This document shows, piece by piece, positions 7,682 to 24,090 of a stretch of DNA of 64,000 nt. Every line of letters starts with the position of its first letter. Position 1 is the stretch's first letter. The notes under the pieces are model-generated. The model made no database searches and was not told where the DNA came from. It saw nothing but the letters and a program-made list of their open reading frames with translations. The stretch is from Woeseiaceae bacterium (lineage in GTDB: Bacteria > Pseudomonadota > Gammaproteobacteria > Steroidobacterales > Woeseiaceae), in contig JAJFKS010000005.1 of the NCBI GenBank assembly GCA_021773115.1, forward strand, positions 62,001-126,000. The letters are read 5' to 3'. A program made the position numbers and the translations under genes.

Positions 7682-8806
7682 TTACTGGGGGTCCGACTCG
7701 CTCACGACCAACCTTGAGAAGGTAACTTGTGAATAGTTGCCTTCTGCGAGGTCTTTTTCCAGATCGCCGGTTCCAGGACATGCTGGATATCTAAATGTGG
7801 GCGCATCCTTGGTACTGCATTGGTTGTAATTTCCTGCTTTGAAGTACAGATAGTCACCCGTGTAGCCGTTTGGGTGATCCAGTGCATCAACGACGCCGTT
7901 CGCATCGACATTATCGGAGAGGTCAATTTCATATTTTACGGTGTCCAGTCGATCGCTCTCGAAAGTAAGGTACATCGTGTTTTCATGTACATTCACGGTG
8001 TAACTAAACTCTTCTCCGAGAGCAATACCGCTTTCACCAGGATCGGACGCGTCGGTCCAATGGCTGCCCCAAACTAAATATTCAACATCAATGCGGTTCG
8101 GGTCATCAAAATCCAGATTGCGTTCGTACTGCCAGAAGACCGAACCCATTTCGTGGTTTGGCCATTTCTTGTATGAGATCTTAAGAGGTTCGTTCCCCCA
8201 GCCGTATCCGTGATCCTGGCTCTCAAACTGATACGCGTGAATTTGTCCGATCACGGTAGAATAAGCGGGTTCTTTGTCGGGATATCCTGCATTCAAGGAC
8301 ACATGATCAACATGCAAGGTTGCCTCCATCTTGCCACCAATAGCAGCAAACTGATCTGCGTCTTCTTTAGCCGCTAACGCCCAATTGTTTCGCGGGTCAG
8401 CTTCCTCGATAGACATATCTGAGCCGCGACTCTCATACCTTAACTCGCTGCGCGTATTGGTAGAGGTCACTTCAGTCGCCGCTTTGTTAGGGCTGGTGAA
8501 AACCAGTTGCCCCTCATCATTCAGATAGAAATAGTCCGGGTGAACATAGGTCTGTAGTTCGGGTACCTGGATGATATCAGCACCGTCGCCACCTCTTTCA
8601 GAAATCGGCAAAGTCAGTGACCAATGACTCAGGTCAAATTTGCTTGCGGGGTATTCGACAGGTTTAGCAACGTCGGCCCGAACCTCCTCCGCTACATTTT
8701 CCGCGGCAGGAGAGGACTCATTTTCTGAAGAACAACCCACTCCGATAATGGTGACCAGTGGTAGAGCTGCGAGCCCGACAAGTAAACTTTTCCTGGCTTT
8801 CGTCAT
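7682..8806 (-). CDS. PL7 alginate lyase, lipoprotein
   Basis: 374 aa from ATG 8806, preferred to an upstream in-frame start at 8866 because it gives a proper lipoprotein signal (MTKARKSLLVG..., lipobox VGCSS) and has a GGGGA ribosome site. Alginate_lyase2 (PF08787) beta-jelly-roll with all PL7 signatures: FDLSHWSLTLP at the domain start, NTRSELR (catalytic Arg strand), GQIHAY (catalytic Gln-His; the QIH form is usually linked to guluronate-containing substrates) and YFKAGNYNQC with the catalytic Tyr. It should act as an outer-membrane-anchored endolyase giving unsaturated oligo-alginate. It is a close paralogue of the second PL7 in this window. It shares its upstream region, which carries a GTCAC direct repeat, with the divergent PL6 gene. 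Confidence 0.95.
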   Translation of the reverse strand: MTKARKSLLVGLAALPLVTIIGVGCSSENESSPAAENVAEEVRADVAKPVEYPASKFDLSHWSLTLPISERGGDGADIIQVPELQTYVHPDYFYLNDEGQLVFTSPNKAATEVTSTNTRSELRYESRGSDMSIEEADPRNNWALAAKEDADQFAAIGGKMEATLHVDHVSLNAGYPDKEPAYSTVIGQIHAYQFESQDHGYGWGNEPLKISYKKWPNHEMGSVFWQYERNLDFDDPNRIDVEYLVWGSHWTDASDPGESGIALGEEFSYTVNVHENTMYLTFESDRLDTVKYEIDLSDNVDANGVVDALDHPNGYTGDYLYFKAGNYNQCSTKDAPTFRYPACPGTGDLEKDLAEGNYSQVTFSRLVVSESDPQ

Positions 8807-8985: not shown

Positions 8986-9001
8986 GTCACAATTGAGTCA
9001 C
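8986..9001 (+). promoter_or_regulatory. 11-bp-phased direct repeat GTCAC-N6-GTCAC (site B)
   Basis: GTCAC at 8986-8990 and again at 8997-9001, exactly one helical turn apart, between divergent PL7 and PL6. An exact 11-nt gap separates the second repeat from TAATCT (9013-9018), a plausible -10 box for PL6. Direct repeats with this phasing are typical of OmpR/PhoB-type response regulators. The same layout is found at 23126-23141 and 12652-12667. Confidence 0.6.
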
Positions 9002-9100
9002 ATGACGCCGGCTAATCTTTCCGCCAGCATGCGCTGAGCCCGCTTGCGCCATGATCATTTGCGAAACTTGACCACACATTTCGATTTTGAAGGTGGAAAA

Positions 9101-10450
9101 ATGACTGACAAAAAGAACCCTGCGTTTCCACGTATCCGACTCGCTTCGCAGATCGCCTGTCTCCTGGTTGTCTTGTTCACCAGCCAGGCAATGGCGGAAA
9201 ATTTCCTTGTCGGCACACAGCAAGATTACGCAAAGGCAGTCGAGGCGGCACAGCCGGGCGACACGATTGCGCTGGCCAGTGGCGAGTGGCGCGACTTCGA
9301 AATCCTTTTTAGCGGTGAAGGAACGGCAGAACAGCCGATTACCCTGACCGCAGAGACAAAGGGGGAGGTCGTAATCGCAGGCCGCTCCAATTTGCGGCTC
9401 GCGGGTAATTACCTTGTCGTTTCGGGTTTGGTGTTCAAGGATGGCCATTCGCCGGGGAGTTCCGTTATTGCATTTCGAGCTGCCGAGGACGATCTCGCTA
9501 ACTACTCCCGGGTAACGGAGGTGGTCGTCGAAGACTTCAACAAGCCGGGCGAGCGTGACCGGGACTCCTGGGTGCACATGTACGGCAAGCATAATCGCCT
9601 CGACCACAGCTACTTCGCGGGCAAGACCAACCTCGGCTCCACGATTGGCGTAGAACTGAATGACGAAGGCAGCCTGAAGAATCACCATCGGATCGATCAC
9701 AACTTCTTCGGACCGAGGCCGGAGCTCGGTTTCAACGGTGGGGAGACTATCCGGATCGGCAACAGCTGGTCTTCGATGAATGATTCATTGACCTTGGTTA
9801 AAAACAACCTGTTTTATCGCTGCGATGGGGAACACGAGATCATCTCGAACAAATCAGGCGGCAATATTTATCGTGGCAATCTTTTTCTCGAGTCGCGGGG
9901 CACGCTGACAATGCGACACGGCAACAACACCTTGGTCGAGAGGAACGTTTTTATTGGCAATCAGGTTCCTGACACCGGGGGTGTTCGCGTCATCAACAAA
10001 GGCCAGGTTGTACGCAACAATTACATGCATGGCCTGACCGGGGAGCGGTTCCGCGGTGGCCTGGTGGTTATGAATGGCGTCCCGAATTCACCGTTGAATC
10101 GTTATCACCAGGTTGACAATGCCCTGATCGAGAATAACTCGATCATCGACGTCAATTTCGTTGAGTTCGCAGCTGGCAGTGACGAGGAGCGCACGCTGCC
10201 GCCGATCAACAGCGTCTTTCACGCGAATCTGGTTTTCAATGCCGATGGACGGGATAACGTCAGAAAGCATGACGACATCTCCGGCATCAAATTCACCGGC
10301 AACTCGATCCACCAGGACATCGAACTGGTGACAGCCGCGAATGGGCTTCTTTACCCGGCCGACCCGGCGCTTGCGAGCGTTGGAGCCGCTAAGAATCTCA
10401 AGGTTCTCGACAGGTCGGATGTCGGACCATCCTGGTATGCCAAGCCCTGA
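9101..10450 (+). CDS. PL6 alginate lyase
   Basis: 449 aa from ATG 9101, which has a GGTGG site and a clean Sec signal peptide ending SQAMA (residue 32); the longer frame from 9044 would hide that signal. It is a right-handed parallel beta-helix of the PL6/chondroitinase-B family, recognisable by EQPITLTAE, the Ca-site segment CDGEHEIISNKSGGN (about 241-255) and TLTMRHGN (about 268-275). K251 and R272 occupy the positions of the catalytic Lys and Arg. PL6 enzymes cut alginate, often poly-MG or poly-G, in the periplasm. The single-domain length fits the ordinary PL6 class rather than two-domain forms. Its stop abuts that of the convergent TonB receptor with no gap. Confidence 0.93.
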   Translation: MTDKKNPAFPRIRLASQIACLLVVLFTSQAMAENFLVGTQQDYAKAVEAAQPGDTIALASGEWRDFEILFSGEGTAEQPITLTAETKGEVVIAGRSNLRLAGNYLVVSGLVFKDGHSPGSSVIAFRAAEDDLANYSRVTEVVVEDFNKPGERDRDSWVHMYGKHNRLDHSYFAGKTNLGSTIGVELNDEGSLKNHHRIDHNFFGPRPELGFNGGETIRIGNSWSSMNDSLTLVKNNLFYRCDGEHEIISNKSGGNIYRGNLFLESRGTLTMRHGNNTLVERNVFIGNQVPDTGGVRVINKGQVVRNNYMHGLTGERFRGGLVVMNGVPNSPLNRYHQVDNALIENNSIIDVNFVEFAAGSDEERTLPPINSVFHANLVFNADGRDNVRKHDDISGIKFTGNSIHQDIELVTAANGLLYPADPALASVGAAKNLKVLDRSDVGPSWYAKP

Positions 10451-12592
10451 TTAGAACTGCCCTCGCAACCCTAGGATGTACTCCCGTCCGTTTAGTCTTT
10501 CACGCCACTCGTCTCGCAGTGGGATTCCATCTGCGATGTGCCCATCGTACCGGGTCCTTTCCCGGACATTAGCGACCTCTATGGAGTTGCGCACCTGGAA
10601 ATAGATCGTCAGCGGGCCATCGGTCGGTCGATACTGCAGGGTAAAATTAACCTTTGGATCTTTCCGCAATTCCCGTTGACTGTAGTCAATATCAGTATCG
10701 TATCTATAACTGCGCCACCCGATGTCGAAGAGGTAGTTGAGGCGCCACCTGGTAATTTCGTGGCGAAAGCTCAAATCGACTTCGTGTTTGGCAGTGTCGT
10801 TCATTACTCTGCTGTTGCCCGTGAAGGCGTCGACCGTATTTGAATCGCGACGCATGTATACAAGGTCAACCACCGCACCTCGTACGCCGATATTGTCCAG
10901 TCTGAAGCTTCCTTTCAGTTCGACTCCGTAAACTTCCGCGTCATCAATATTGCCAGGCCCGGATACGTCGGGCAGGATCTCGATGAGGTCAATGTGGTCT
11001 TCAATGTTGTTGAAGAAACCTTTGGCGCTAACGACTCCCAGATCTCCGCCGAGGCGGTGTTCGTAGGTAACGGCATACTCCCACGCCTTCTCCGGCTCGA
11101 GGTTCGGATTGCCGCCGACAATTCGATTCTCATCTGCGTCGAAGCTCACGATGAAGTCGCCGAAGTCCAGTTGGCTAACGGTTCTTTCTACCGTGGCACG
11201 CACTTGATCGCTGCCGTTCAGGTCCCATCGGAAGTCCAACCGTGGCTTGTAATATGTAAATTCCCTCGAGTTGTCCACATCCAGGCCGAGCTGCTCAATC
11301 TGCGAACGTTCGATGTTCAGCGCGCTTTCGAGAACCATGTTGCTCGCCGGGATCCAGAAAAACGTTGCGAACAGTTCGTAACGATCTTCAATCACTTCGG
11401 AATCGGAGTTACTTAGAGGAATTTCCACGAGACCGCCGTCGGGCTCTTGTTCAAACAGGCGCACTGACTTCTCAAGTGAATTGGCGGCACCTTCCAGGCC
11501 GACCTCAAAGCTGTTGCTTTGTGCGACCGGCCAGCTGTAGGAACTGCGTATTATCTTTTCTGTTTGCTTTTCCTGCTCCTCAACTAACGCGTCACCCGGA
11601 AGGCTGCCCAAAGTACTCGACGTCCGGGAAACGGAGTTGAAACTGTCGCCGTCCTCACTGGTGAGAATTACTCGTGTTTTCAGCTGGCCCGGCCCGAATT
11701 TGTTAACCAGGTCTCCGCCAAACTCCCAACCGAATTCGTCGCTCTCCTCAACCTCCAGGGTGGAAATCGTTTCGCCGCTTTCGGGAATCATTGCTACCCG
11801 GTACCGATCTTCGGTTTCCTTTTCGTTGCCTGCCTGCCCATTGAGGTTCAATACATCGGAGTTCCCGAAGGTCCACGACCCCGATGCATTCAGCTTGGTT
11901 GCATCGTGGGCCTTTGGCATGACCGAATGGCGTGTTTTGGTAATCGTGCCAGTCAAAGCATCTCTGAACTCCTCGGCCTCGTAACTGGTGTCCCCGCGGT
12001 TATAGGGCCCATATTCTGCGCTGAGCAGGTAATTCAGGCTGCCACGGGAACCACTATAGGAAACCAGCCCGTCACCCCGCACTTGTCCTTTGCCGTAGTT
12101 TCCCAAGTGGGCTTGCCAGGATCCGCTTCCGCTTGCAGCGCTTTCGGACAGAATGATGTTGATCAGAATTCCGTCACTGCGAACGTCGAGCCCGGAAGCG
12201 GTACCTCGAATGAGGTCGATCCGAGTGACATTGCGAGCTTGAATTCGTTGCAACGCAGTCGAGATGCTAATGCTCTTTCCGGAAAAGCGCTTGCCGTTAA
12301 TCAGAACCTGATCACCGCCCGAACCGAAGCCGCGATCTGGCCCACCTCCACCACCGCCTCCGCTTTCGTCCGGCACGATATCGGCGGTGCCCGGAATCCA
12401 CCGCAGCATGTCCTGGGCGGTAATCGGGCTGTACTGATCGAAAAACCGCGCATCGTAGGAGACCGTTGCGCCGTCCTCAGACGTAGTTACCCCGCCCAGC
12501 GAAACATCATCAGCCGAGAGTGCCGCAGTTGTAATAAGCAGTAGCGTAGCCGCCGATATCGATCGTATAGCAGCAGTGATTGTTCCTTCCAT
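10451..12592 (-). CDS. TonB-dependent receptor with Gly-rich plug loop
   Basis: 713 aa from ATG 12592. A longer frame begins at GTG 12634, but that lies only 18 bp from a putative regulatory repeat and upstream of a possible -10 (TACGAT, 12631-12626), and the shorter start gives a standard signal peptide ending ALSADD. The plug contains QDMLRWIPGTADIV, then a run of seven glycines and GFGSGGDQVLINGKR, then RIDLIRGTASGLDVRSDG; the barrel ends in a C-terminal Phe (LRGQF). Lying between PL6 and GntP in the alginate block, it is the best candidate for uptake of alginate oligomers across the outer membrane (inference). The Gly-rich insertion in the plug is unusual. Confidence 0.9.
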   Translation of the reverse strand: MEGTITAAIRSISAATLLLITTAALSADDVSLGGVTTSEDGATVSYDARFFDQYSPITAQDMLRWIPGTADIVPDESGGGGGGGPDRGFGSGGDQVLINGKRFSGKSISISTALQRIQARNVTRIDLIRGTASGLDVRSDGILINIILSESAASGSGSWQAHLGNYGKGQVRGDGLVSYSGSRGSLNYLLSAEYGPYNRGDTSYEAEEFRDALTGTITKTRHSVMPKAHDATKLNASGSWTFGNSDVLNLNGQAGNEKETEDRYRVAMIPESGETISTLEVEESDEFGWEFGGDLVNKFGPGQLKTRVILTSEDGDSFNSVSRTSSTLGSLPGDALVEEQEKQTEKIIRSSYSWPVAQSNSFEVGLEGAANSLEKSVRLFEQEPDGGLVEIPLSNSDSEVIEDRYELFATFFWIPASNMVLESALNIERSQIEQLGLDVDNSREFTYYKPRLDFRWDLNGSDQVRATVERTVSQLDFGDFIVSFDADENRIVGGNPNLEPEKAWEYAVTYEHRLGGDLGVVSAKGFFNNIEDHIDLIEILPDVSGPGNIDDAEVYGVELKGSFRLDNIGVRGAVVDLVYMRRDSNTVDAFTGNSRVMNDTAKHEVDLSFRHEITRWRLNYLFDIGWRSYRYDTDIDYSQRELRKDPKVNFTLQYRPTDGPLTIYFQVRNSIEVANVRERTRYDGHIADGIPLRDEWRERLNGREYILGLRGQF

Positions 12593-12625
12593 CAGAAATC
12601 TTTTGACACCTGTCCAAAAGCCGTC

Positions 12626-12631
12626 ATCGTA
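12626..12631 (-). promoter_or_regulatory. Possible -10 box of the TonB receptor gene
   Basis: On the minus strand the sequence reads TGTACGAT, an extended -10-like element, 22 nt beyond the proximal GTCAC of site C. It would place transcription initiation just downstream of GTG 12634 and so supports the ATG 12592 start. Evidence is by eye only. Confidence 0.25.
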
Positions 12632-12651
12632 CACTCACGTCGCAAATTCCC

Positions 12652-12667
12652 GTGACAAACGTGTGAC
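12652..12667 (-). promoter_or_regulatory. 11-bp-phased direct repeat GTCAC-N6-GTCAC (site C)
   Basis: On the plus strand GTGAC occurs at 12652-12656 and 12663-12667; read toward the TonB receptor gene this is GTCAC-N6-GTCAC, within a longer repeat TTTGTCAC. It has the same phasing and reading direction as sites A and B. Likely bound by the OmpR-type regulator encoded at 23383 (inference); a PhoB-type Pho box is an alternative reading. Confidence 0.55.
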
Positions 12668-12687
12668 AAAACGACTCGCCAGATGGG

Positions 12688-14046
12688 CTATACGAGCGGC
12701 AGAAGCCAGGACATCAAAACGACCTGAAGAAGTCCAACCAGGGAAATCGTCGCGAGTAAGAACGTCCAGGTCTGCAACGCTTCTTTTTCAGTAAATCCGC
12801 TCATTCGGGCAACGATCCAAAAACCACTGTCATTCATCCACGAGATAGTCATCGAGCCGAATCCAATGGACAGCAAGATGTATACGGGGTGGTACGCAAG
12901 CTCGGCATCCGGGCCGATCAAGGCGGCCATGATCGCGCTTGATGTGATCATTGAAACAGTGCTGGAGCCTTGCGCAGTCTTCATGACTGCAGCAATCAAC
13001 CAGGCAAGAAGTATGTAATGTATGCTGAAACCGTCAGTGGCCAGTCTTATCGCGTCGCCAATTCCGCTGTGCTTAATCATTGCTCCGTATGCACCACCGG
13101 CGCTTGTTATCAATATGATAATCCCCGCAATCTGCAGCGGTTTCGATATCTCCCGCCAGAGCTCCTGGCTTCCGAGTTTTTGCGTCGAAGCCCACAGATA
13201 CAAAGCGATGATCGCGCCTACGCTCATTGCAAGATTCTTATTCCCAAGGATAGCTACCCAATCGGGCAGATCGCCTGTCAAAACATTGACGATAGACGCA
13301 AGACTAATCATCGCAATCGGCATCACGATCGGAAGCATGGAAAGCAGTATTGAAGGCGGATGCTGAACTGTCGCAACACTCGCATCTGCGACTCTTACGG
13401 GGATATTCAATTTTTCATTGAGTCGTTTTGCAACTTTCAGCGTTACCACCACCGGTAAAATCCCGGCGAGGAGTCCCGCCAAAATTACAACGCCCAGATC
13501 AATGCTCAGCGCTTCAGCCATTATTAACGGGCCAGGAGTTGGTGGAACAATGCTGTGAGAAATAGCCGCGCCGCCGCAGATCGCCGTGACGTATAGTACG
13601 AAGTCCTTGCCAGTCTTTAGGGCAAGCGTAATACCCAGCGGGATGAGCAGGAAGAAAACCGTATCAAAGAAGACCGGGATTGACAGGACAAAGCCACCGA
13701 TAACCAGTGCCAGCGCAGCCCTGCTGGCCCCAAGAGTTTTCAGCAGCCAATTTACAATTTGTTCTGCCGCTCCGCTTTTCATCATGGCGGTACCGATTAC
13801 AGCGGCCAGTGCAATTACCCATGCTATTTTTCCAGCCACTACACCAAATTCTTGCATGGGCAATTCGAGAGCCGTAATCGCAGAGATCTGCCCAGCGATA
13901 ACGGGCAGTGCCGGAGAAATCAGGCCTACAAATATTGCAGTCAGGATGAGCGCAATAAACGGATGGAAGCGTAGTTTGGTAATCAGGTAGACAACTACAA
14001 CTAAGCTTGTAGCAAGTACAGCAAAGGGCCAATAATCAGAATTCAT
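12688..14046 (-). CDS. GntP family sugar-acid:H+ permease
   Basis: 452-aa polytopic inner-membrane protein with about 12 to 14 hydrophobic segments. Family landmarks are RFHPFIALILTAIFVGL near the N terminus, IPVFFDTVFFLLIPLG, HSIVPPTPGPL (a conserved GntP loop) and AQGSSTVSMITSSAI. GntP members carry D-gluconate, fructuronate, glycerate or related acids with protons. Given its place between the alginate receptor and the SDR/hydratase operon, the substrate could be KDG, DEH or a product of these; gluconate is equally possible because gluconokinase and Gnd are encoded later in the window. The start at 14046 has a GGAG site. It reads toward the TonB receptor gene, whose start lies about 95 bp away. 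Confidence 0.9.
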   Translation of the reverse strand: MNSDYWPFAVLATSLVVVVYLITKLRFHPFIALILTAIFVGLISPALPVIAGQISAITALELPMQEFGVVAGKIAWVIALAAVIGTAMMKSGAAEQIVNWLLKTLGASRAALALVIGGFVLSIPVFFDTVFFLLIPLGITLALKTGKDFVLYVTAICGGAAISHSIVPPTPGPLIMAEALSIDLGVVILAGLLAGILPVVVTLKVAKRLNEKLNIPVRVADASVATVQHPPSILLSMLPIVMPIAMISLASIVNVLTGDLPDWVAILGNKNLAMSVGAIIALYLWASTQKLGSQELWREISKPLQIAGIIILITSAGGAYGAMIKHSGIGDAIRLATDGFSIHYILLAWLIAAVMKTAQGSSTVSMITSSAIMAALIGPDAELAYHPVYILLSIGFGSMTISWMNDSGFWIVARMSGFTEKEALQTWTFLLATISLVGLLQVVLMSWLLPLV

Positions 14047-14169
14047 ATTCGCTTCATCTCCTCGATGCGATCACGATCGACAATGCGTATATTCGTGGAC
14101 GCTTTAAACTGACGTATTCGAGATAAACACTATCGTGCGAATGTAGAGTTTTTGGAAACGAATCGTCTC
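14047..14169. other. Upstream region of GntP permease
   Basis: Divergent spacer between the GntP start and the broken tRNA. No clear palindrome or coding frame is seen; the promoter of GntP must lie here. Confidence 0.4.
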
Positions 14170-14227
14170 GCGGGTGTGGTTCAACGGTGGGACATCAGCT
14201 TCCCAGGCTGAGAATGAGGGTTCGATT
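14170..14227 (+). pseudogene. Truncated tRNA-Gly (anticodon CCC)
   Basis: Reads as the 5' three-quarters of a tRNA-Gly: acceptor 5' strand GCGGGTG (14170-14176), D stem GTTC/GGAC around AACGGTG, anticodon stem TCAGC/GCTGA with loop TTCCCAG (anticodon CCC, 14102+100 to 14104+100, i.e. 14202-14204), 5' T-stem strand GAGGG (14216-14220) and T loop TTCGATT (14221-14227). The 3' T-stem strand and the 3' acceptor strand, expected as CCCTC and CACCCGC, are missing: the sequence continues ACAGTCAGTG. The molecule could not fold into a working tRNA. Loss exactly at the T loop is where tRNA-targeting integrases cut, so this may be a recombination scar. Confidence 0.75.
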
Positions 14228-14382
14228 ACAGTCAGTGCTCAATGTCATCGAGAGATTCTTGTTGATTTTCGTCGGCGCTGTGTATCCGAGGACAGAGTTG
14301 TAGGAAATTCAATGGCTGATATAGTACAGGCATGGTAAATTGGGCTGAACAAACAGTCAACCAATTTATCAGAAAGCCGCTC

Positions 14383-14400
14383 AAATTGGTATACACAATT
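14383..14400. promoter_or_regulatory. UxuR/ExuR-like operator
   Basis: AAATTGGTATACACAATT matches the gammaproteobacterial UxuR/ExuR consensus AAATTGGTATACCAATTT at 15 of 18 positions, including the whole left half and centre. It lies just upstream of the hydratase/SDR/ABC operon. The FadR/UxuR-type protein at 49681-50442 is the likely ligand-responsive repressor (inference). Confidence 0.6.
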
Positions 14401-14424
14401 GGTCTAGAGATGTTGAGATTGCAA

Positions 14425-15270
14425 ATGAACTCAGAAATCAAGAAGAACGTTTATGAGGTTGCCTCACTCTCGGAGCGAGACGACGCGATCTCCGCATGTC
14501 TGGTTGAGGCTCGACTGAGTGCCAGCCCTTTGGCCGATTTTCCCGACCGCCTACCTGAGACTCTCGGGCAGGCCTATGCGATTCAGGCTGCTTCGATCGG
14601 TCGGTGGCCGGAAGAGGTCGCGGGTTGGAAAGTCGCCATGATGCCCCCGGCGGATCGTGAGCGATTTCCAGATGAGCGTCTGGCCGGGCCTGTTTTTAGC
14701 TCCTCGTTTCACCGGGTGGAGGGCAGTTCGTGCAAGTCGACGCCGGTCTACGAGGGCGGATTTGCGGCGGTCGAAGCCGAGTTTGTCCTGGAACTGGGTA
14801 CAACGGTGCCTCCGCTGGGCCGCGGCTATTCCGATGAAGAATTGAGCGAACTTGTAGCAGCAGCTTATTGCGGTGCAGAAATAGCGAGCAGCCCCATGGC
14901 CGGAGCCAACAAGAACGGAGCGATGTCGATCATCTCCGATTTCGGTTGTAATGCCGGCGTGATGGTCGGTCCGGAAATACCGGACTGGGCTTTGCGACCT
15001 TTGGACTCTATGCCCGTCACTGTCACCGTGGACGACGCCGTCGTTGGTGAGAAGACTGCCGCGGCGATTCCGGGAGGCCCGCTGCAGGCGCTGCGGTTCC
15101 TGCTCGGCCACTGCGCCGCTCGGGGCATCGAGCTTCCCGCCGGTGCTCGGGTTTCCTCCGGCGCGGTTACGGGCGTGCACGCTGTGCAATTGAACTCGTT
15201 GGCGCGGGTCGACTTCGGGCCATTCGGCTGGTTTGAGCTTACCTTCGAGCCGATGAGTCCTCGGAAGTAG
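14425..15270 (+). CDS. 2-keto-4-pentenoate hydratase / FAH-superfamily enzyme
   Basis: 281 aa from ATG 14425; in-frame ATGs at 14410 and 14332 also exist, but the latter would put the operator inside the gene. Cytoplasmic, MhpD-like: GWKVAMM (about 66-72), AVEAEFVLEL with the acidic metal ligands (about 117-126), AAYCGAEIASS, SDFGCNAGVMVG and SSGAVTGVHAV near the end. Family reactions are metal-dependent hydration or C-C cleavage of 2-oxo acids. Directly followed by an SDR, it recalls the non-phosphorylative route in which a 2-keto-3-deoxy sugar acid is oxidised by an SDR and the diketo acid cleaved by an FAH-type hydrolase; that would offer a KdgK/Eda-free path for KDG. This role is inference. 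Confidence 0.8.
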   Translation: MNSEIKKNVYEVASLSERDDAISACLVEARLSASPLADFPDRLPETLGQAYAIQAASIGRWPEEVAGWKVAMMPPADRERFPDERLAGPVFSSSFHRVEGSSCKSTPVYEGGFAAVEAEFVLELGTTVPPLGRGYSDEELSELVAAAYCGAEIASSPMAGANKNGAMSIISDFGCNAGVMVGPEIPDWALRPLDSMPVTVTVDDAVVGEKTAAAIPGGPLQALRFLLGHCAARGIELPAGARVSSGAVTGVHAVQLNSLARVDFGPFGWFELTFEPMSPRK

Positions 15271-15323
15271 CGTGCGTTACATCTCAATCATTTCAATCAC
15301 AGATGAACCGGGGAGGGAATTTT

Positions 15324-16082
15324 ATGGACATGTTTAGTCTCGAAGGACGAACGGCGCTGATTACAGGTGCTTCGCGCGGCATCGGGTATGCGCTCGCGAG
15401 CGCTTTGGCGAACGCCGGCGCCGCCGTGGTCCTGAACGGCAGGTCCGAAGCTGCGTTGGAAGACGCGGCCGAAACCCTGCGTGCCACAGGAGCTGAAGTC
15501 AGTATTGAGTTGTTCGATGTCACCGACGCTGCTGCCATTCGAGCTGGCGTGGCGCGAATCGAGGAGCGCTCACCAATCAATATACTGGTTAACAACGCCG
15601 GTATGCAGCGCCGCGCACCGCTGGAGTCTTTCGACGACGACGATTGGCGGGCGATAATGTCAACGAATCTCGACGGTGTTTATTACGTCAGCAAGTCAGT
15701 CGCGCCGTTTATGATCGCGCGCGGCAGCGGCAAGATCATCAACATTGGCAGTGTACAGTGCGGGCTTGGGCGGCCGACTATTGCCCCGTACACGGCGTCC
15801 AAAGGTGCGGTTCGGACGCTTACCATGGGCATGTGCGCCGATTGGGCGAAGCACGGCATCCAGGCGAACGTGATCGCGCCCGGCTACTTCGATACAACAC
15901 TCAACAAGGCCTTGGTCGAAGACAAGGATTTCGATGAGTGGCTCCGAAAGCGGACGCCGGCAGGACGATGGGGAAAGCTGGAAGACCTGCATGGTGCGGC
16001 GGTATTTCTTGCCTCGCCTGCCGCCGACTTCATCAATGGCCAGACGATCTATGTCGATGGTGGCATCGTGGCCGTAGTCTAG
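15324..16082 (+). CDS. SDR oxidoreductase (gluconate 5-dehydrogenase-like)
   Basis: 252 aa from ATG 15324, which has a GGAGGG site; an upstream in-frame ATG (15303) precedes that site. Classical SDR: cofactor motif TGASRGIG, NNAG, catalytic Ser in INIGSVQC, YTASKGA (Tyr-x3-Lys) and the C-terminal DGGI. Closest in style to gluconate 5-dehydrogenase and 2-deoxy-gluconate 3-dehydrogenase (KduD) enzymes. The sugar-acid setting suggests oxidation or reduction of KDG, DEH or gluconate. It lies about 50 bp after the hydratase and 10 bp before the ABC binding-protein gene, so all are probably one transcript under the UxuR-like operator. Confidence 0.88.
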   Translation: MDMFSLEGRTALITGASRGIGYALASALANAGAAVVLNGRSEAALEDAAETLRATGAEVSIELFDVTDAAAIRAGVARIEERSPINILVNNAGMQRRAPLESFDDDDWRAIMSTNLDGVYYVSKSVAPFMIARGSGKIINIGSVQCGLGRPTIAPYTASKGAVRTLTMGMCADWAKHGIQANVIAPGYFDTTLNKALVEDKDFDEWLRKRTPAGRWGKLEDLHGAAVFLASPAADFINGQTIYVDGGIVAVV

Positions 16083-16092
16083 GGAGACTCTG

Positions 16093-18030
16093 ATTAATTC
16101 TCGTTGCACACGTTGTGGGCTGGTCCTGATAAGTGCATCGATATTGGCGATAGCACTGCCCGCATTTGCGCTGGAATACAAAGAAGCCCCGGAACTTGCT
16201 GCCGCCGTGGCAGCCGGCGAATTGCCGCCTGTTGCCGATCGACTTCCCGACGAACCGCAAGTCGTCGCCCCGTTTAACGCTATTGGCAAGTATGGAAACG
16301 AGCTGCGATTTGGTCTTTCCGGACAGGCCAATCACGATCCTATTCGAGCCTGGGGAAATATGGGGCTCGTTCAGCATGACTACGACAGTAATTATACGGA
16401 GGTCATTCCACACGTCGCTGAGTCCTTCGATGTTAACGACGACAACACGGTATTCACTTTCTACCTGCGTAAAGGAATGAAGTGGTCCGATGGCACACCG
16501 TTCACAGCGGAGGATATTGAATTCGCGGTAAACGACATTCTACTTCACGAAGACTTGCAACCCGTGTCGCCGGTCTGGAGTGCAGGTGGTGAGGTTGTTG
16601 AATTCCGAAAGATTGACGACTACACCGTCGAATTCTCATTCACGGTTCCTTACAGCGAATTCCTCTACGTATTGGCTGATCGCCGCTATCTTCAACCCAC
16701 GCTGTATCAGAAAGCTTATTGTTCCAGAGCCCACCCTGACTACAACCCAAATCTCGAGGCAGAGCTGGAAGCGAACAACCTGACTGATTGGCGTGACTAT
16801 CTACGCAAGCTTTCCGGCGATCCCCACATCGTTGGCATACGCTTTGAGAACCCCGATCGACCTACACTTGAGGCGTGGAAAATCGTCGTGCCTTACAAGG
16901 GCGGTTCAACCCAGGTAATTCTCGAGAGAAACCCCTTTTTCTGGCAGGTCGACACCGAAGGTAATCAACTTCCGTATATCAATAAGCTCGTCGGGCTTAT
17001 CTATGGAGATCCTGAAGGGATGCTGCTGGGAGCGATTGGTGGCGACAATGACCTGGGATATACCATTATCGGCACGCCGGCCAATCGCCCATTGCTGGCG
17101 AAAACAGCAAAACACCATGGCTCGGAACTCTATCCGGCTACGGCCATAGGTGGTACCAGTTTGCTATTCCAGTTGAATCTGACGCACAAAGATCCCGAAC
17201 TTCGGGCGCTGTTCAACGAGAAGAATTTTCGCGTAGCGCTCTCAATTGGCTTCGATCGTCAGGAAGTTATCGATACCGCCCTGTTTGGCGACGGTGTTCC
17301 ATGGCACAACGCGCCGTTTGAAGATAGCCCTATGTATCACGAGCGATATGCTACGCAGTATCTGAAATTCGATAAGAACGAGGCTAACAGCTTACTTGAC
17401 GGAATCGGCCTGGGCGAACGAAACTCCGACGGCATCAGGCTCTTGCCGAGTGGTCGACCTGTGCATTTCGTTGTGGAAGCGATCGACCGTCCGCCAGAGC
17501 GTATTGACCAACTCGAAATGATGACGCAACAGTGGCGCGATAATCTTGGTGTCGACGTTCGGCCGAATATCACAGAGACCTCACTGATGTTTTCACGAGT
17601 CAACAACAATAATCATGATGCGGCCATTTGGTCCGACTTCGCGAGTTGGCTGCAGGGACGGGTCCCCTACAGTTTGGTCCCGCTCGAGTTTGACTCCCGC
17701 TGGGGTATCGCCTGGGTGGATTGGTACAAGAGCGATGGCAAGCGCGGCGAAGAACCACCCGATCACATCAAAAAGCGTGTTTATCTTTATCAAATGTCCA
17801 AGGGCGCGCCGACCGCTGAAGCCCGAATAGACTACTTCCAGCAAATAGCCGAGATTGCCGCAGATCAATTTGAGACTTTCGGAGTTTCAAAGAACATGAC
17901 GAACTACGGGCTCAAAAAAATCGCACTGAAAAACGTCCGTCCAAGCAACCCTGGCTCGAACCAGTACCCTTTGTCACTTCAGCGCCCCTGGACTTACTTC
18001 TGGGACACCGAATCAGGTAACCGTCCATAA
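16093..18030 (+). CDS. ABC transporter oligomer-binding protein (SBP_bac_5), AUU start
   Basis: 645 aa. Periplasmic binding protein of the peptide/nickel/oligosaccharide family: VIPHVAESFDVNDDNTVFTFYLRKGMKWSDG-type motif, then VDTEGNQLPYIN and FRVALSIGFDRQEV. Unusually long for the family (ordinary DppA is about 535 aa), like the larger binding proteins used for oligosaccharides. Start choice: an in-frame TAG at 16075-16077 limits the gene; the first usual start, TTG 16144, would remove the signal peptide core. ATT at 16093 lies 6 nt after GGGAG and gives a full signal peptide (N-S-R-C-T-R..., ending ALPAFA). CTG 16090 is the only near alternative. First gene of a four-gene import cassette, probably for uronate oligomers. 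Confidence 0.88.
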   Translation: MNSRCTRCGLVLISASILAIALPAFALEYKEAPELAAAVAAGELPPVADRLPDEPQVVAPFNAIGKYGNELRFGLSGQANHDPIRAWGNMGLVQHDYDSNYTEVIPHVAESFDVNDDNTVFTFYLRKGMKWSDGTPFTAEDIEFAVNDILLHEDLQPVSPVWSAGGEVVEFRKIDDYTVEFSFTVPYSEFLYVLADRRYLQPTLYQKAYCSRAHPDYNPNLEAELEANNLTDWRDYLRKLSGDPHIVGIRFENPDRPTLEAWKIVVPYKGGSTQVILERNPFFWQVDTEGNQLPYINKLVGLIYGDPEGMLLGAIGGDNDLGYTIIGTPANRPLLAKTAKHHGSELYPATAIGGTSLLFQLNLTHKDPELRALFNEKNFRVALSIGFDRQEVIDTALFGDGVPWHNAPFEDSPMYHERYATQYLKFDKNEANSLLDGIGLGERNSDGIRLLPSGRPVHFVVEAIDRPPERIDQLEMMTQQWRDNLGVDVRPNITETSLMFSRVNNNNHDAAIWSDFASWLQGRVPYSLVPLEFDSRWGIAWVDWYKSDGKRGEEPPDHIKKRVYLYQMSKGAPTAEARIDYFQQIAEIAADQFETFGVSKNMTNYGLKKIALKNVRPSNPGSNQYPLSLQRPWTYFWDTESGNRP

Positions 18031-18045
18031 TTTGAGGCGTGCATA

Positions 18046-19029
18046 ATTCTTGAATTCATCATCAAGCGTATTCTCTGGACGATTCCAATCCTGTTCCTGG
18101 TTTCGTTACTTGCGTTCGCAATTATGCAAGCACCGCCCGGTGACTTCGTTACCGCATTGAGTGCCTCCCTGACGGCGCGGGGGGAGCAAGTCGACCTTGT
18201 TCAACTCGAGTCAATTCGTGAGCGCTTCGGTCTCGATCAGCCGTTCCTCGTTCAATACTGGAAGTGGATCAGCGGTGTACTGGTTGGCGACTTTGGTGTG
18301 TCGTTCGAGTGGCGCCAGCCAGTCGGCGAACTTATTGGAGAGCGAATGGCACTGTCGCTGATACTGGCACTTGCGACGGTGCTTTTTACATGGGCAGTCG
18401 CGCTGCCAATCGGCGTTTATTCGGCGGTTAAAAAATACACGATCGGTGACTACCTCATTACGACGATCGGATTTATTGGCCTCGCGACGCCCAATTTCTT
18501 GCTGGCACTTGTCCTCATGTATGTCGGCGTTGTTCACTTTGGAAGCGACGTCACAGGATTGTTTTCTCCCGAGTTTCGAAATGCCCCCTGGTCATTCGCG
18601 AGGTTCAAGGACCTTCTGGCTCACTTGTGGATCCCCGTTGTCATCCTTGGCACGTCATCATCCGCGAGCATCATTCGAATTATGCGGGCCAATTTGCTTG
18701 ATGAGCTTCCCAAGCCCTATGTCACAACAGCGAGGGCGAAAGGTCTCTCCGAGTTCAAACTTCTGATGACCTATCCGGTTCGTGTCGCATTGAGTCCCTT
18801 TATTTCAACGATTGGATGGATGTTCCCTCAAATTATTAGCGGTTCCGTCATTGTGTCGATCGTGTTATCCCTGCCGACAGCCGGTCCCATGTTGTTGACC
18901 TCACTCAAAGCGCAAGACATGTACCTGGCGGGCTCATTTGTCCTGCTTCTCAGTATTCTCTCGGTTCTGGGAATGTTGGTCTCAGACGTTTTGCTTGCAC
19001 TTGTCGATCCGCGAGTTCGAAGAAGATAG
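18046..19029 (+). CDS. ABC transporter permease 1 (DppB-type), AUU start
   Basis: 327 aa. Inner-membrane permease of the oligopeptide/oligosaccharide class: six predicted membrane spans, the EAA-loop segment YVTTARAKGL (about 225) and the typical N terminus LEFIIKRILWTIPILF leading to QAPPGDF. The first ATG in frame (18124) falls inside the conserved end of helix 1 and would delete that helix. ATT 18046 stands 8 nt after GAGG and aligns with the Met of the usual ML-FI-KRLLW start; ATA 18043 is the only near alternative. It follows the binding-protein gene by 15 bp. Two successive genes with apparent AUU initiation are striking. Confidence 0.88.
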   Translation: MLEFIIKRILWTIPILFLVSLLAFAIMQAPPGDFVTALSASLTARGEQVDLVQLESIRERFGLDQPFLVQYWKWISGVLVGDFGVSFEWRQPVGELIGERMALSLILALATVLFTWAVALPIGVYSAVKKYTIGDYLITTIGFIGLATPNFLLALVLMYVGVVHFGSDVTGLFSPEFRNAPWSFARFKDLLAHLWIPVVILGTSSSASIIRIMRANLLDELPKPYVTTARAKGLSEFKLLMTYPVRVALSPFISTIGWMFPQIISGSVIVSIVLSLPTAGPMLLTSLKAQDMYLAGSFVLLLSILSVLGMLVSDVLLALVDPRVRRR

Positions 19030-19036
19030 ATGACGA

Positions 19037-20185
19037 ATGACTGACATCGACAAAGAAACGGCAGTCGAAAATTCGCCGCAGGCAACCCTTGCTCACGCGT
19101 CGCAATGGCGACTGATGTGGTACAACTTTCGCCAGCACCGGCTGGCGGTGTTCGGCGGAATCATCATCCTGATTCTGTATATCGTCGCCTTGTTTGCAGA
19201 ATTCATTGCGCCCTTTGATCCACATTCGTCGACGTCGAAGAATGTCTATCACCCGCCGCAACTCATTAAGTTTATAGATCACGACGAAGATGGTGGCTGG
19301 TCATTTCGACCGCATGTTCAACAGATGGAGCTGAACCGGGACCGTGTCACCCTTGAAGGGAACTATACGCCGGTGTCTGGCCGGAAAGTTTATCTGAGGC
19401 TGTTCGGAAAGGGCGATCCCTATAAGTTATGGGGCAAATTTGAGATGAGCCGACACCTGATCGCCCCTGCTAATCCTGGAGAACGATTTTATCTGCTCGG
19501 CGCGGATCGCCTGGGGCGCGATATGCTAAGCCGCACAATTACCGGCACGAGAGTATCCATGTCCATTGGACTTGTCGGCGTAACCCTGAGTCTGGTCATC
19601 GGAATTTTTCTGGGTGGTATATCCGGCTATTATCGTGGAGCGATTGATACGGTAGTGCAGCGTACTATCGAGATCATGATCGCGCTGCCGACGATTCCGT
19701 TGTGGCTGGCCCTGAGTGCAGCGATGCCGAAGGACTGGGACACGGTAACCCGGTATTTCGCCATAACCATAATTCTGTCACTAGTGGGGTGGACGGAACT
19801 CGCCCGCGTAGTCAGGGGACGCTTTTTGTCGCTACGAGCCGAAGACTACGTGACGGCTGCGCGACTTGATGGGGGTTCACAATCCCGCATCATTTTCCGA
19901 CATATATTGCCCTCCATGACCAGTCACATTATCGCCGCAGTGACGCTTGCGATTCCTGCGATGATTATGGCGGAAACCGCGCTTTCGTTTCTCGGTCTTG
20001 GGTTGTTGCCGCCTGCAGTTTCGTGGGGCGTACTTCTGCTGGAAGTGCAGAATATCCGATCGATCGCAGCAGGCCCATGGCTATTCTTGCCGGGCGGAAT
20101 GGTTCTGATAACGGTTCTTGCCTTTAACTTTCTTGGCGACGGACTGCGTGATGCAGCAGATCCTTATGCATCCAAAGGGCATTGA
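19037..20185 (+). CDS. ABC transporter permease 2 (DppC-type)
   Basis: 382 aa, ATG 19037, only 7 bp after permease 1. N-terminal helix (VFGGIIILILYIVALFAEFIAPFDP) is followed by a roughly 100-residue soluble insertion (about 65-150, with HVQQMELNRDRV and KVYLRLFGKGDPY) before the transport domain, a form seen in the longer DppC-like permeases. The core shows GADRLGRDMLSR, TRVSMSIG and the EAA loop DYVTAARLDGGSQ. It forms the channel heterodimer with permease 1. It ends just before, or overlapping a possible TTG of, the ATPase gene. Confidence 0.92.
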   Translation: MTDIDKETAVENSPQATLAHASQWRLMWYNFRQHRLAVFGGIIILILYIVALFAEFIAPFDPHSSTSKNVYHPPQLIKFIDHDEDGGWSFRPHVQQMELNRDRVTLEGNYTPVSGRKVYLRLFGKGDPYKLWGKFEMSRHLIAPANPGERFYLLGADRLGRDMLSRTITGTRVSMSIGLVGVTLSLVIGIFLGGISGYYRGAIDTVVQRTIEIMIALPTIPLWLALSAAMPKDWDTVTRYFAITIILSLVGWTELARVVRGRFLSLRAEDYVTAARLDGGSQSRIIFRHILPSMTSHIIAAVTLAIPAMIMAETALSFLGLGLLPPAVSWGVLLLEVQNIRSIAAGPWLFLPGGMVLITVLAFNFLGDGLRDAADPYASKGH

Positions 20186-20190
20186 TCAAC

Positions 20191-21942
20191 ATGAATGACC
20201 TATCTGCAGAAAATGCCAACAACATCGTTTTGGAAATCAAGAACCTCGTAACTGAGTTTCCAACGCGAGACGGAACATTCCGTGCAGTGGATGATGTCAG
20301 TTTCTCACTTAAGGCCGGGAAGACGCTCTGCGTTGTTGGTGAGAGCGGAAGTGGCAAAAGCGTTACCGCCCGTTCCATTCTGCAGATACTTGATTCACCT
20401 GGACGAATTGTCTCAGGTCAAATTCTACTTCACAGCTTACGTGGAATAGCGAGCGACGCTGATGGTCCCACAGACCTGGCCAGGCTAAAGCCGCGATCCA
20501 ATATAATACGGTCGATCCGAGGCCGTGAAATCGCCATGATCTTCCAGGAGCCGATGAGTTCATTGTCCCCGGTTCACCGCATCGGAAATCAAATCGCTGA
20601 AGTGCTGCGTTTGCATGAAGGGATGTCGAAAAAGCAGGCATGGGCACAAAGCGTAAATTTGCTGGATCAGGTCGGAATATCCGATCCTGCAGCGGCGGCT
20701 GATCGCTTCTCTTTCGAGTTCTCCGGCGGAATGCGGCAGCGCGCGATGATCGCTATGGCGCTGGCCTGCAACCCTTCGGTACTTATCGCAGATGAGCCGA
20801 CAACAGCGCTGGATGTCACGACCCAGGCCGAAGTTCTCGACCTCATCAAATCAATCCAGGCTGAACGGGATATGGCGGTTTTGTTCATCACCCATGATAT
20901 CGGGGTCGTCGCACAAATTGCCGATGAGGTTGTTGTCATGCGACAGGGCAAAGTCCTTGAACAGGGCGACGTATTCGGCATGTTCGAAAACCCAGGCCAC
21001 CCGTATACACGAGAGCTCATTTCTGGCGCTCGAGACCTCGACCAGCCCGCGGCCCAGCGCCTCGCAGCACGGGCGAGCCGAGATATTGGCGAGCTGATAC
21101 TGACAGCGACGGATGTTCGGAAAGAATTTACGATTTCAAAAAGCCTGTTCGGTTTGAGGCCCGACAAGATCGCGGTCGGGTTGAAAGATGCCAGTCTCGA
21201 ACTCTACGCGGGCGAAAACTTAGGGATAGTCGGTGAGAGCGGTTCCGGCAAAACGACGTTGGCTCGTTGTTTGCAGCGCGTCTATGACCTTAGCTCCGGA
21301 ACAATTCGCTATAGCGACCGAAACGGTGAGTCGGTGGATCTGGGATCCTTGCCGTCAAGCCAACTGCGGCCTTACTGGCGCGATATTCGCACGGTTTTTC
21401 AAGATCCATTTGGTTCGCTCAACCCGCGAATGACCGTCGCCGAAATTGTCGGTGAACCCATGCTCGTTTCAGGAGAACTGTCAGGTCGCGATCTGCAAAT
21501 GCGAGTTGAAGAACTACTCGAACTTGTGGGCCTTCCGGCATCAGCCGCTCAACGCTACCCTCACGCCTTTTCTGGTGGCCAGCGACAACGTGTCGCAATT
21601 GCACGGGCGATTGGTCCGCGGCCGAGGATTATCATTGCGGACGAACCGACCTCGGCTCTTGATCTGAGCTTGCGCGCGAAAACACTCGATTTACTGCTTA
21701 GCTTGCAAGAGCAAATGGATCTTAGTTTCGTTTTCGTAACCCATGATATCGCCGTCGTGCGCTACTTTTGCGATCGCGTAGCCGTAATGTACAAAGGCGG
21801 GATTGTCGAAGTGGGTGACTCGGAGACGATTTGCTCCGACCCACAGCACCCGTATACACAATCTCTGTTATCCGCTGTCCCTCGCCCGGACCCGCTGCAA
21901 CGCGGTAATACTCGTGTGCGCTATTCTGAATCGGTCGATTAG
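20191..21942 (+). CDS. ABC transporter fused dual ATPase (DppD-DppF-like)
   Basis: 583 aa from ATG 20191 (TTG 20182 is also in frame). Two complete nucleotide-binding domains in one chain, each with Walker A GESGSGKS/T (about 44-51 and 348-355), signature FSGGMRQR and FSGGQRQR, and Walker B LIADEPTT and IIADEPTS; each ends with the HPYT segment typical of peptide-type ATPases. It powers import through the two permeases. YejF/GsiA-like domain fusion removes the need for two separate ATPase genes. Its TAG stop overlaps the TAA of the convergent PL7 gene in the four bases 21939-21942. Confidence 0.93.
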   Translation: MNDLSAENANNIVLEIKNLVTEFPTRDGTFRAVDDVSFSLKAGKTLCVVGESGSGKSVTARSILQILDSPGRIVSGQILLHSLRGIASDADGPTDLARLKPRSNIIRSIRGREIAMIFQEPMSSLSPVHRIGNQIAEVLRLHEGMSKKQAWAQSVNLLDQVGISDPAAAADRFSFEFSGGMRQRAMIAMALACNPSVLIADEPTTALDVTTQAEVLDLIKSIQAERDMAVLFITHDIGVVAQIADEVVVMRQGKVLEQGDVFGMFENPGHPYTRELISGARDLDQPAAQRLAARASRDIGELILTATDVRKEFTISKSLFGLRPDKIAVGLKDASLELYAGENLGIVGESGSGKTTLARCLQRVYDLSSGTIRYSDRNGESVDLGSLPSSQLRPYWRDIRTVFQDPFGSLNPRMTVAEIVGEPMLVSGELSGRDLQMRVEELLELVGLPASAAQRYPHAFSGGQRQRVAIARAIGPRPRIIIADEPTSALDLSLRAKTLDLLLSLQEQMDLSFVFVTHDIAVVRYFCDRVAVMYKGGIVEVGDSETICSDPQHPYTQSLLSAVPRPDPLQRGNTRVRYSESVD

Positions 21943-23030
21943 TTCGCCGAGGATTCACTCACGACCAGGCTGTGGAAGGTTGTTTGGGCGTAATTCCCGT
22001 TGGCTTGATCCGTTTCCCAGACGCCTGTTCCGGGGCATGCAGGATAGCGCCAGCTTTCATTCACACTGGCACTGCATTGATTGTAGGTGCCCGCTTTGAA
22101 GTAGAGCGGATCACCAGCATAGCCTCGCGGATGGTCAGCATCATCGACGTATCCGTTTGCGTCGACATTGTCAGCGAGATTGATTTCGTGTCGAACGGTA
22201 CCTTTACTATCATTCTCAAAGACGAGATACATCGTGTCCTGGTGCACATTAACGGTGTAACTAAACACCTCACCCAAAGCGATGCCGCGGTCACCAGGAT
22301 CGTCCGGATTATCCCAGCTGTTTCCCCATACCGCATAGGCTATGTCAGTCCGGTTTGGGTCCTCTGTAGGAAGGTTTCTTTCATAGGCCCAAAAGACCGA
22401 GCCATTTTCATGTTGCGGCCACTTCTTGTAAAAAATCTTGAGAGGTTCGTTGCCGTAACCGAAGCCATCTGTTTTCTCATCCAGTTTTTGTGCATGAATC
22501 TGGCCAACTACCACAGAGTAAGCAGGGGGTTTGTGGGAGTGATCCGCATTCAGTGAGACGTGATCCACTTGCAAGGTCGCCACCATCTTGCTGCCTATAG
22601 AGGCATAGAGATCTGAATCCTCGTGAGAGGCTAAGACAAAATTGCTGGCCGGCGACGATGAACTGATGGAAGTGTCTGATCCGCCGCTCCTATAGTGCAA
22701 TTCGCTGCGCGTATTGGTGGACGTTGGGGAAGTTGTTGCCTTGTTTGGGCTGGTGAACACAATGTGGTCATTCTCATCGAGATAGAAAAAGTCGGGATGT
22801 GAATAGGTTTGAAGCTCCGTGACGCCGATGTTATCGGCCCGCTCATCCCCGTCCATATCCAGCGGCAAAGTTATTGACCAATGACTCAGGTCGAAAACGC
22901 TCGCCGGGACCCGCGCCGGTTCATTGGCGACTGACTTTTGTGCCTGTGAGCTAGTGGGCTCGGAACAGGCAACTCCCAGACAAGCGCTCGCGGTTAGAGC
23001 CAGTAGATTTACTTTCTTAGTGTTAAACAT
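21939..23030 (-). CDS. PL7 alginate lyase 2, lipoprotein
   Basis: 363 aa, ATG 23030 with GGGA site; lipoprotein signal with lipobox GVACS. Alginate_lyase2 fold with FDLSHWSITLP, NTRSELH, GQIHAQ and YFKAGTYNQC. It aligns along its whole length with the first PL7, roughly 60 percent identical by eye, so the two arose by duplication. One difference lies in the first conserved strand, where the second Arg of RSELR is His here; the catalytic first Arg is kept. That may alter substrate length or M/G preference. Its upstream region contains direct-repeat site A, with a -10-like TATTCT 11 nt beyond it, the same spacing as for PL6. Confidence 0.95.
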   Translation of the reverse strand: MFNTKKVNLLALTASACLGVACSEPTSSQAQKSVANEPARVPASVFDLSHWSITLPLDMDGDERADNIGVTELQTYSHPDFFYLDENDHIVFTSPNKATTSPTSTNTRSELHYRSGGSDTSISSSSPASNFVLASHEDSDLYASIGSKMVATLQVDHVSLNADHSHKPPAYSVVVGQIHAQKLDEKTDGFGYGNEPLKIFYKKWPQHENGSVFWAYERNLPTEDPNRTDIAYAVWGNSWDNPDDPGDRGIALGEVFSYTVNVHQDTMYLVFENDSKGTVRHEINLADNVDANGYVDDADHPRGYAGDPLYFKAGTYNQCSASVNESWRYPACPGTGVWETDQANGNYAQTTFHSLVVSESSAN

Positions 23031-23125
23031 TATAAGATTCCCGACGTCAGTTTCACCGCCTCATACCAGGATCAATACCGGGACAGGTTGGCGATCCTGA
23101 ACCAAACCAGAATAAACCAGCTATT

Positions 23126-23141
23126 GTGACGTGATTGTGAC
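23126..23141 (-). promoter_or_regulatory. 11-bp-phased direct repeat GTCAC-N6-GTCAC (site A)
   Basis: Plus strand carries ATTGTGAC twice (23123-23130 and 23134-23141), 11 bp apart; toward PL7 this reads GTCAC-N6-GTCAC. After the proximal repeat, 11 nt separate it from TATTCT, a -10-like hexamer. A further inverted pair, GTGAC-N6-GTCAC, lies at about 23203-23218 nearer the regulator gene. Likely operator of the adjacent OmpR-type regulator for the lyase gene and perhaps for itself. Confidence 0.6.
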
Positions 23142-23382
23142 ACGTCGCTGTGGTGAGCCTCAGCACGCATACCCCGCCTGCAGCTTTGAGCACACCGTCT
23201 CAAGTGACAAACAGGTCACAATCGATCGTTCAGTCTATACCCTGATCTATATTTCCTGAGAATTGAAGGATGACGCTCAAGCAAGACCTTTTCGTGTTCC
23301 GGACCTGCATAGCCGGCGTCGTTGACGCCACCGTATCCGAACTTAAAGCAAAGGTCGGATATACTTTCCGCTTCTGAATGGT

Positions 23383-24090
23383 ATGAGCGCTATCTCGATG
23401 AGCCCTCGCGAAACAACGCCAATTCTCCTGGTGGAAGACGATTCCAATCTTGCGGGATCGTTGGCCGACTACCTGGGTGATTGCGACTACGACGTTGACT
23501 TTGCATTCAACGGGGCCAGTTGCCTCGAGCTTGCTCGTCGAAATGAGTACGCTGTGATTATCATGGACGTTTCCATGCCGGTGCTCGATGGTCTGTCGGC
23601 CTGCCAGCAACTGCGAACCGATCTTGAGATTGATACGCCGGTAATTTTTCTGACGGCCCGAGATACACTTGATGACAAAATCGCCGGATACGATTCGGGT
23701 GGCGACGACTATCTTGTGAAACCATTTGCGCCCAAGGAACTGGTGTGCCGAATCGAGGCCCTTCGAAAGCGGCAGTACACGAACCGTAGCGTTGACAGGT
23801 CTATCGGTGGCCTTTCCATTTACCCAAAGCGTCTGCAGGTTAGCTTTGGCGAACAGTTGCTTGAACTTCAGGCCGTGCATATTCAAATACTCATGCTTCT
23901 TGCCGATGCAGCACCCGCGGTGGTCAGCAAGAGGGCGCTCGAAATCGCGTTGTGGCCCGATCAAACGCCACGGAGTAACCCACTTCGTACACATATCTAT
24001 CGACTTCGACGGCAACTGGACGAAAAGTTTGGTTACCACTTTATCGAAACAGTGCATGGCCTGGGATATCGAATTGACGTTCCTGACTAG
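23383..24090 (+). CDS. OmpR-family response regulator
   Basis: 235 aa (ATG 23398 is an alternative start). Receiver domain at residues 13-125 with acidic pocket VEDD, phospho-acceptor D62 in IIMDVSMP, Thr in FLTARD and Lys in LVKPFAPKE; C-terminal Trans_reg_C winged helix (about 140-232) ending THIYRLRRQLDEKFG...VHGLGYRID. DNA-binding response regulator that partners the kinase encoded immediately downstream with overlapping ends. It lies divergently from the second PL7. OmpR-type proteins bind direct repeats spaced by one helical turn, matching sites A, B and C upstream of lyases and the TonB receptor; hence it probably senses alginate breakdown products or a related cue and activates the block (inference). 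Confidence 0.93.
   Translation: MSAISMSPRETTPILLVEDDSNLAGSLADYLGDCDYDVDFAFNGASCLELARRNEYAVIIMDVSMPVLDGLSACQQLRTDLEIDTPVIFLTARDTLDDKIAGYDSGGDDYLVKPFAPKELVCRIEALRKRQYTNRSVDRSIGGLSIYPKRLQVSFGEQLLELQAVHIQILMLLADAAPAVVSKRALEIALWPDQTPRSNPLRTHIYRLRRQLDEKFGYHFIETVHGLGYRIDVPD

Follow-up and report, generated by a model that had tools for sequence, protein, structure and literature searches.

The ColR/ColS two-component system of Pseudomonas putida is a described counterpart of the locus presented here. In the account of ColR binding, the sequence TTCAC-N6-TTCAC is reported for three of seven DNase I-footprinted sites, and according to the authors the sites consist of two direct repeats, one of which is less conserved (PMC2689224). 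One site is flanked by colR and PP0900, a PAP2 gene divergent from colR; the same account describes activation of PP0900, while autoregulation of colR is not clear from it (PMC2689224). The sensor ColS is described as using an ExxE motif for zinc and iron (PMC4074579). In Xanthomonas campestris, where the system is called VgrR/VgrS (alias ColR/ColS), direct control of the TonB-dependent receptor gene tdvA was reported (PMC5231390). The CreB/BlrA regulators are associated with the cre/blr tag, TTCAC-N6-TTCAC (PMC4689548).

The regulation of alginate degradation was surveyed for clusters from 32 genomes (PMC7874173). The cluster of a single strain, LMG 21861, was annotated with two two-component systems, for which no box or tested target was seen there. 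The 29 other regulators were assigned to the GntR (16), LacI (8), TetR (3) and Crp (2) families, and AusR of Zobellia is described as a GntR repressor (PMC7874173). A further alginate cluster is reported with one unspecified regulator (PMC6262041). Given the precedent of LMG 21861, alginate genes accompanied by a two-component system are not new. A box, a ColR-like clade and predicted targets for an alginate locus were not found described in open papers, among the matches listed.

Here we describe an alginate locus within a 64-kb stretch of DNA from a Woeseiaceae bacterium (the window). Its two-component system resembles ColR/ColS in having an OmpR-family regulator, a 16-bp box of two half-sites, one such box placed between the gene of the regulator and a divergent predicted target, and predicted targets at the membrane and outer surface (PMC2689224, PMC4074579). 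It differs from ColR/ColS in that the box contains GTCAC twice, the predicted targets are alginate lyases and a TonB-dependent receptor, and the kinase has no ExxE motif. Compared with the published ColR-type box, (T/C)(T/C)NA(C/G)NN(T/C)TTTTT(C/G)AC, the window boxes agree in spacing and in the TCAC core, whereas their halves start with G instead of T/C and the spacer is not T-rich. With VgrR/VgrS the window system has in common a TonB-dependent receptor gene as target, a predicted one in the window, but tdvA is described as repressed in iron shortage, with iron sensed via ExxE (PMC5231390). The half-site and spacing of the cre/blr tag are nearly identical to those of the window box (PMC4689548); CreB of E. 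coli itself is 32% identical to the window regulator and lies outside its clade. Local regulation of an alginate lyase cluster, as predicted here, is shared with the marine alginate clusters (PMC7874173).

Results

The locus comprises two PL7 alginate lyase genes, PL7a (7682..8806, minus strand) and PL7b (21939..23030, minus strand), a gene for a PL6 lyase of the Pfam Chondroitinase B family (9101..10450, plus strand) and a TonB-dependent receptor gene (10451..12592, minus strand). These were assigned by Pfam, and the starts of PL7a, PL6 and the receptor gene are inferred. Divergent from PL7b lies the gene of a response regulator (23383..24090, plus strand) with the recognition helix LRTHIYRLR, which is overlapped by the gene of a sensor histidine kinase with a HisKA domain (24074..25276, plus strand, start inferred). 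Both domains of the regulator, the receiver (PF00072, 88.3 bits) and the winged helix (PF00486, Trans_reg_C, 53.3 bits), scored above their cut-offs, which agrees with the OmpR/PhoB-type family named for it in the initial annotation; the gene set given there (two PL7, PL6, TonB receptor, OmpR-family regulator) is likewise borne out by Pfam. The kinase has no ExxE metal-binding motif in its periplasmic part (residues 1-150 covered). Also encoded within the locus (16144-21942) is an ABC importer of the peptide type, with SBP_bac_5, permeases and an oligo_HPY-containing ATPase, which may serve for oligo-alginate.

The direct repeat GTCAC-N6-GTCAC has exactly three exact matches in the window, starting at 8986, 12652 and 23126 (strands plus, minus and minus), all of them intergenic. 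Box 1 (8986..9001, plus strand) is located in the divergent PL7a/PL6 gap and points toward PL6, with the hexamer TAATCT following 11 nt downstream. Box 2 (12652..12667, minus strand) precedes the likely ATG of the TonB receptor gene by approximately 60 nt and points toward this gene; no -10-like hexamer is present at 11 nt from this box, and the closest passable candidate, TACGAT, follows at 20 nt. Box 3 (23126..23141, minus strand) occupies the gap that separates PL7b from the divergent gene of the response regulator and points toward PL7b, with TATTCT 11 nt downstream. In 100 dinucleotide shuffles of the window the repeat occurred with a mean of 0.07 and at most once. The three repeats, with their positions and directions, had been given correctly in the initial annotation, where a simple count led to an estimate of about 0.1 chance copies per 64 kb. 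Its proposal that the proximal repeat takes the place of the -35 element fits two of the three sites, PL6 and PL7b, but not the receptor site.

A possible fourth, weaker site, GTGAC-N6-GTCAC (inverted, with the same spacing and no strand assigned), is located at 23204..23219, in the stretch that separates box 3 from the gene of the regulator, and may be autoregulatory or a second PL7b site. The sequence TTCACCTTCAACTCAC (5333-5348) ranks fourth among the intergenic matches to the clade matrix described below and is followed, 20 nt on, by the ATG of a gene for a PL5-type alginate lyase; it was left out as a box because this distance is too short for a usual activator site. A CRP-type reading (TGTGA-N6-TCACA) was dropped by eye, since the halves of the box are direct and the spacing is different.

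Direct repeats of any exact 5-mer were compared in a look-elsewhere test (gaps of 2-11; three or more different letters per 5-mer; genes taken from our own list). At least one window copy was present for 545 families, and GTCAC-N6 was the only one with three intergenic copies; the sole other family with two was the same repeat shifted by one base. The whole genome (4.41 Mb) contains nine exact copies of GTCAC-N6-GTCAC versus seven of the pattern read backward, so the word is not enriched genome-wide, and the looser [GT]TCAC-N6-[GT]TCAC, with 21 copies versus 29 for the reversed pattern, gives the box no support from genome-wide enrichment either. Four of the six copies outside the window are inside long ORFs, one is in a gap between a LacI-type and a TonB receptor gene (L003) and one is at a place without an ORF of at least 100 aa (L006). 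For any three of nine randomly placed copies to fall within 14.2 kb, P = 0.0025. The extended word TGTCAC-N6-GTCAC has four copies in the genome, three in this window and one in an enolase-like ORF. By the genome scan, which the initial annotation had proposed as a check, GTCAC-N6-GTCAC is not enriched across the genome and most of its other copies are in long ORFs, but three of the nine are clustered in this locus and placed at promoters. At L003 (G000:C20:48945-48960) the copy GTCACCCGCCTGTCAC is directed toward the TonB receptor gene, which is divergent from the LacI-type regulator gene; only a doubtful 108-aa ORF covers the site.

Among the genomes searched, an orthologue of the window regulator was found only in G032 (61% identity), and a search of genome contigs with the kinase matched only the orthologue in G032. 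No lyase is visible among the ORFs of the 18-kb contig that carries the G032 orthologue, and the three exact repeats of this genome (84% complete) are all in ORFs. An upstream match in G032, GTAACTAGATTGTCAC, was not taken as a box; the end of a Nudix-like ORF overlaps it. A plasmid search with the regulator yielded no informative named relative among the 5000 records covered. We further compared 20 stretches containing PL6 genes, 19 from other species and one around a second PL6 gene of this genome. At an E-value of 1e-5 neither the window regulator nor the kinase has a match in them. They contain three exact repeats, of which none adjoins a lyase gene: two fall within ORFs and one (L110) is in a gap. 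With no regulator or kinase match and no lyase-side box in these stretches, the orthologous clusters do not confirm the regulon; the cluster comparison suggested in the initial annotation, made with the PL6 stretches and G032, thus did not bear it out. The gap site at L110 (15832-15847, G060:C13) is an exact GTCACCAATAAGTCAC from the PL6 locus of another species in the genus; a dehydrogenase-like gene follows after about 200 bp. Only a doubtful 122-aa ORF lies over the site, and the regulator has no match on that 20-kb stretch.

As the orthologous lyase promoters were undecisive, the promoters of the regulator's own clade were examined instead. A first look covered eight relatives (39-61% identity), and TCAC repeats in 11-bp phase were seen upstream of several of them, for example TTCACGTTTTGGTCAC, TTCACGATTATTTCAC and TTCACGTTTGTTTCAC. 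The clade set was collected by profile searches at the level of the class (369 genomes) and of the order (396 genomes), keeping the best 30 loci per search of many more matches. The resulting 58 clade loci correspond to 54 non-redundant upstream regions, or 53 without the window's own. In a tree, the 58 clade rows, that of the window regulator among them, are separated by one branch (100/99) from all 25 control rows; the latter contain CreB and ArcA of E. coli (both on long branches) and the PhoB of this genome. In the upstream comparison, one of 25 control regulators (L019) proved to be clade member L159 and was removed.

Exact [GT]TCAC-N6-[GT]TCAC is present upstream of 11 of the 53 clade members (mean of 0.11 and maximum of 2 in 300 shuffles), and pairs of [GTA]TCAC upstream of 18 (shuffle mean 0.29, maximum 2). 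When the eight regions of the first look were dropped, the former motif was still found in 8 of 45. The box was found upstream of none of the 24 control OmpR-family regulators. A ranking of 4-mer repeats without a preset word placed TCAC with a period of 11 first (19 of 53 regions, runner-up 11). TCAC-N7-TCAC is accordingly present upstream in 19 of the 53 regions; in the 300 bp upstream of the other 34 clade members no such pair is present. The box thus does not always accompany the regulator gene. A half-site matrix built without the window sites gave its top intergenic score to the three window boxes, but three intragenic places equal or exceed this score, so the matrix alone is weak. Five clade loci (L163, L164, L179, L181 and L182) have at least three TCAC-like half-sites in 11-bp phase, suggesting cooperative arrays.

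Four clade regulators from genus g19 of the window's order (L179, L183, L184 and L185) are divergent from a gene judged PAP2-like by eye, and at L179 and L184 GTCAC or ATCAC repeats point toward this gene. PL7b occupies the corresponding place in the window. The window regulator resembles ColR, as far as this analogy reaches, by its box and by the PAP2-like neighbour of some of its clade relatives. Elsewhere in the same genome (L192, G000:C28:13550-13565) TTCACAGAAATGTCAC is located upstream of a PAP2 gene (Pfam) that is divergent from a glycosyltransferase gene. This site is approximately 4 kb away from another OmpR-family regulator gene; PAP2 is a ColR target in Pseudomonas.

Within the clade the recognition helix appears to vary with the first base of the box. 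Regulators with the motif LRSH have T first in the distal half at 15 of 16 sites, as compared to 0 of 6 sites for regulators with LR[AT]H, to which that of the window belongs. At two LRNH regulators all repeats are imperfect, and both kinds occur. We treat this covariation as a lead, since it was noticed after the fact, few independent lineages are represented and the LRNH repeats are mixed.

Discussion

Based on the placement of the boxes and the promoters of related regulators we propose that the alginate locus contains a ColR-like two-component system whose regulator (23383-24090) probably binds the three boxes and activates the lyase and receptor genes. The boxes look like docking sites of the local regulator because many related regulators carry the same type of box beside their own genes. 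That the local system owns the repeats, as the initial annotation had claimed, is supported by the difference between the clade (11 of 53) and the controls (0 of 24) and by the resemblance to the footprinted ColR sites. Binding of the regulator to the boxes, and activation rather than repression, are what we infer from these data.

It is unlikely that another ColR-like or CreB-like regulator of the genome binds or shares the boxes. A candidate would be the clade paralogue at G000:C34:217775 (helix LRTHLSNLR), which also has LRTH, but the 300 bp upstream of it contain no exact or one-mismatch repeat and it is the window regulator that adjoins one of the boxes. A CreB-like owner would be in line with the near-identity of the cre/blr tag (PMC4689548); against it stands the position of E. 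coli CreB, at 32% identity, outside the clade. The window regulator itself scored 127.2 bits with the CreB equivalog, below the cut-off of 273.

The second alternative is that the boxes are Pho boxes (consensus CTGTCAT-N4-CTGTCAT) and that the lyase genes are driven by PhoB, which becomes active when phosphate is short and recognizes TGTCA-N6-TGTCA-like repeats. The half-sites do have GTCA and the 11-bp phase in common with Pho boxes, and a true PhoB is encoded in this genome at G000:C28:242657 (329.7 bits, cut-off 296.2). However, C ends all six half-sites, the window sites match 9-10 of the 14 consensus positions by hand count, and the TCAC repeat belongs to the clade of the window regulator. 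Since the box-adjacent regulator, with 122.2-122.6 bits, fails the PhoB equivalog cut-off of 296.2 and the true PhoB is located elsewhere in the genome, ownership by PhoB is quite improbable, and the position of the Pho box as the main rival, assigned to it in the initial annotation, is weakened. For pstS, the one family searched gave no match in this genome.

Three unrelated chance matches in promoter regions are a highly improbable explanation, for although neither form of the word is enriched genome-wide, the shuffles, the unique standing of the repeat among the 545 families, the orientation and gene context of the boxes and the independent agreement with the motif upstream of the clade regulators all argue against it.

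For control by the local ColR-like system we propose the following mechanism. The kinase (24074-25276) would phosphorylate the regulator in answer to a signal, possibly alginate or its uronate products. A dimer of the regulator would then place one winged helix on each GTCAC half-site, both on one face of the DNA as expected from the 11-bp phase. At the PL6 and PL7b promoters the bound dimer would occupy the place of the -35 element and bring RNA polymerase to the promoter. Recruitment at the promoter of the TonB receptor gene would have to follow a different geometry. PL7a may share the box of the PL7a/PL6 gap.

How the system came to its present place can be suggested only tentatively. A ColR-like system might have been captured by the alginate locus, its kinase having moved from metals to an alginate-derived signal, while recognition helix (Ser to Thr) and box (first base T to G) were retuned together. 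The result would be a dedicated, insulated lyase regulon. We consider this history possible but rather doubtful.

The analysis names a likely regulator and its box for alginate degradation in a gammaproteobacterium. It also yields a rule of wider scope that can be put to the test: within a whole clade of ColR-like regulators, part of the members are marked by an 11-bp-phased TCAC box, whose first base may depend on a single residue in the recognition helix. If this is true, the regulons of many unstudied regulators would become readable from sequence.
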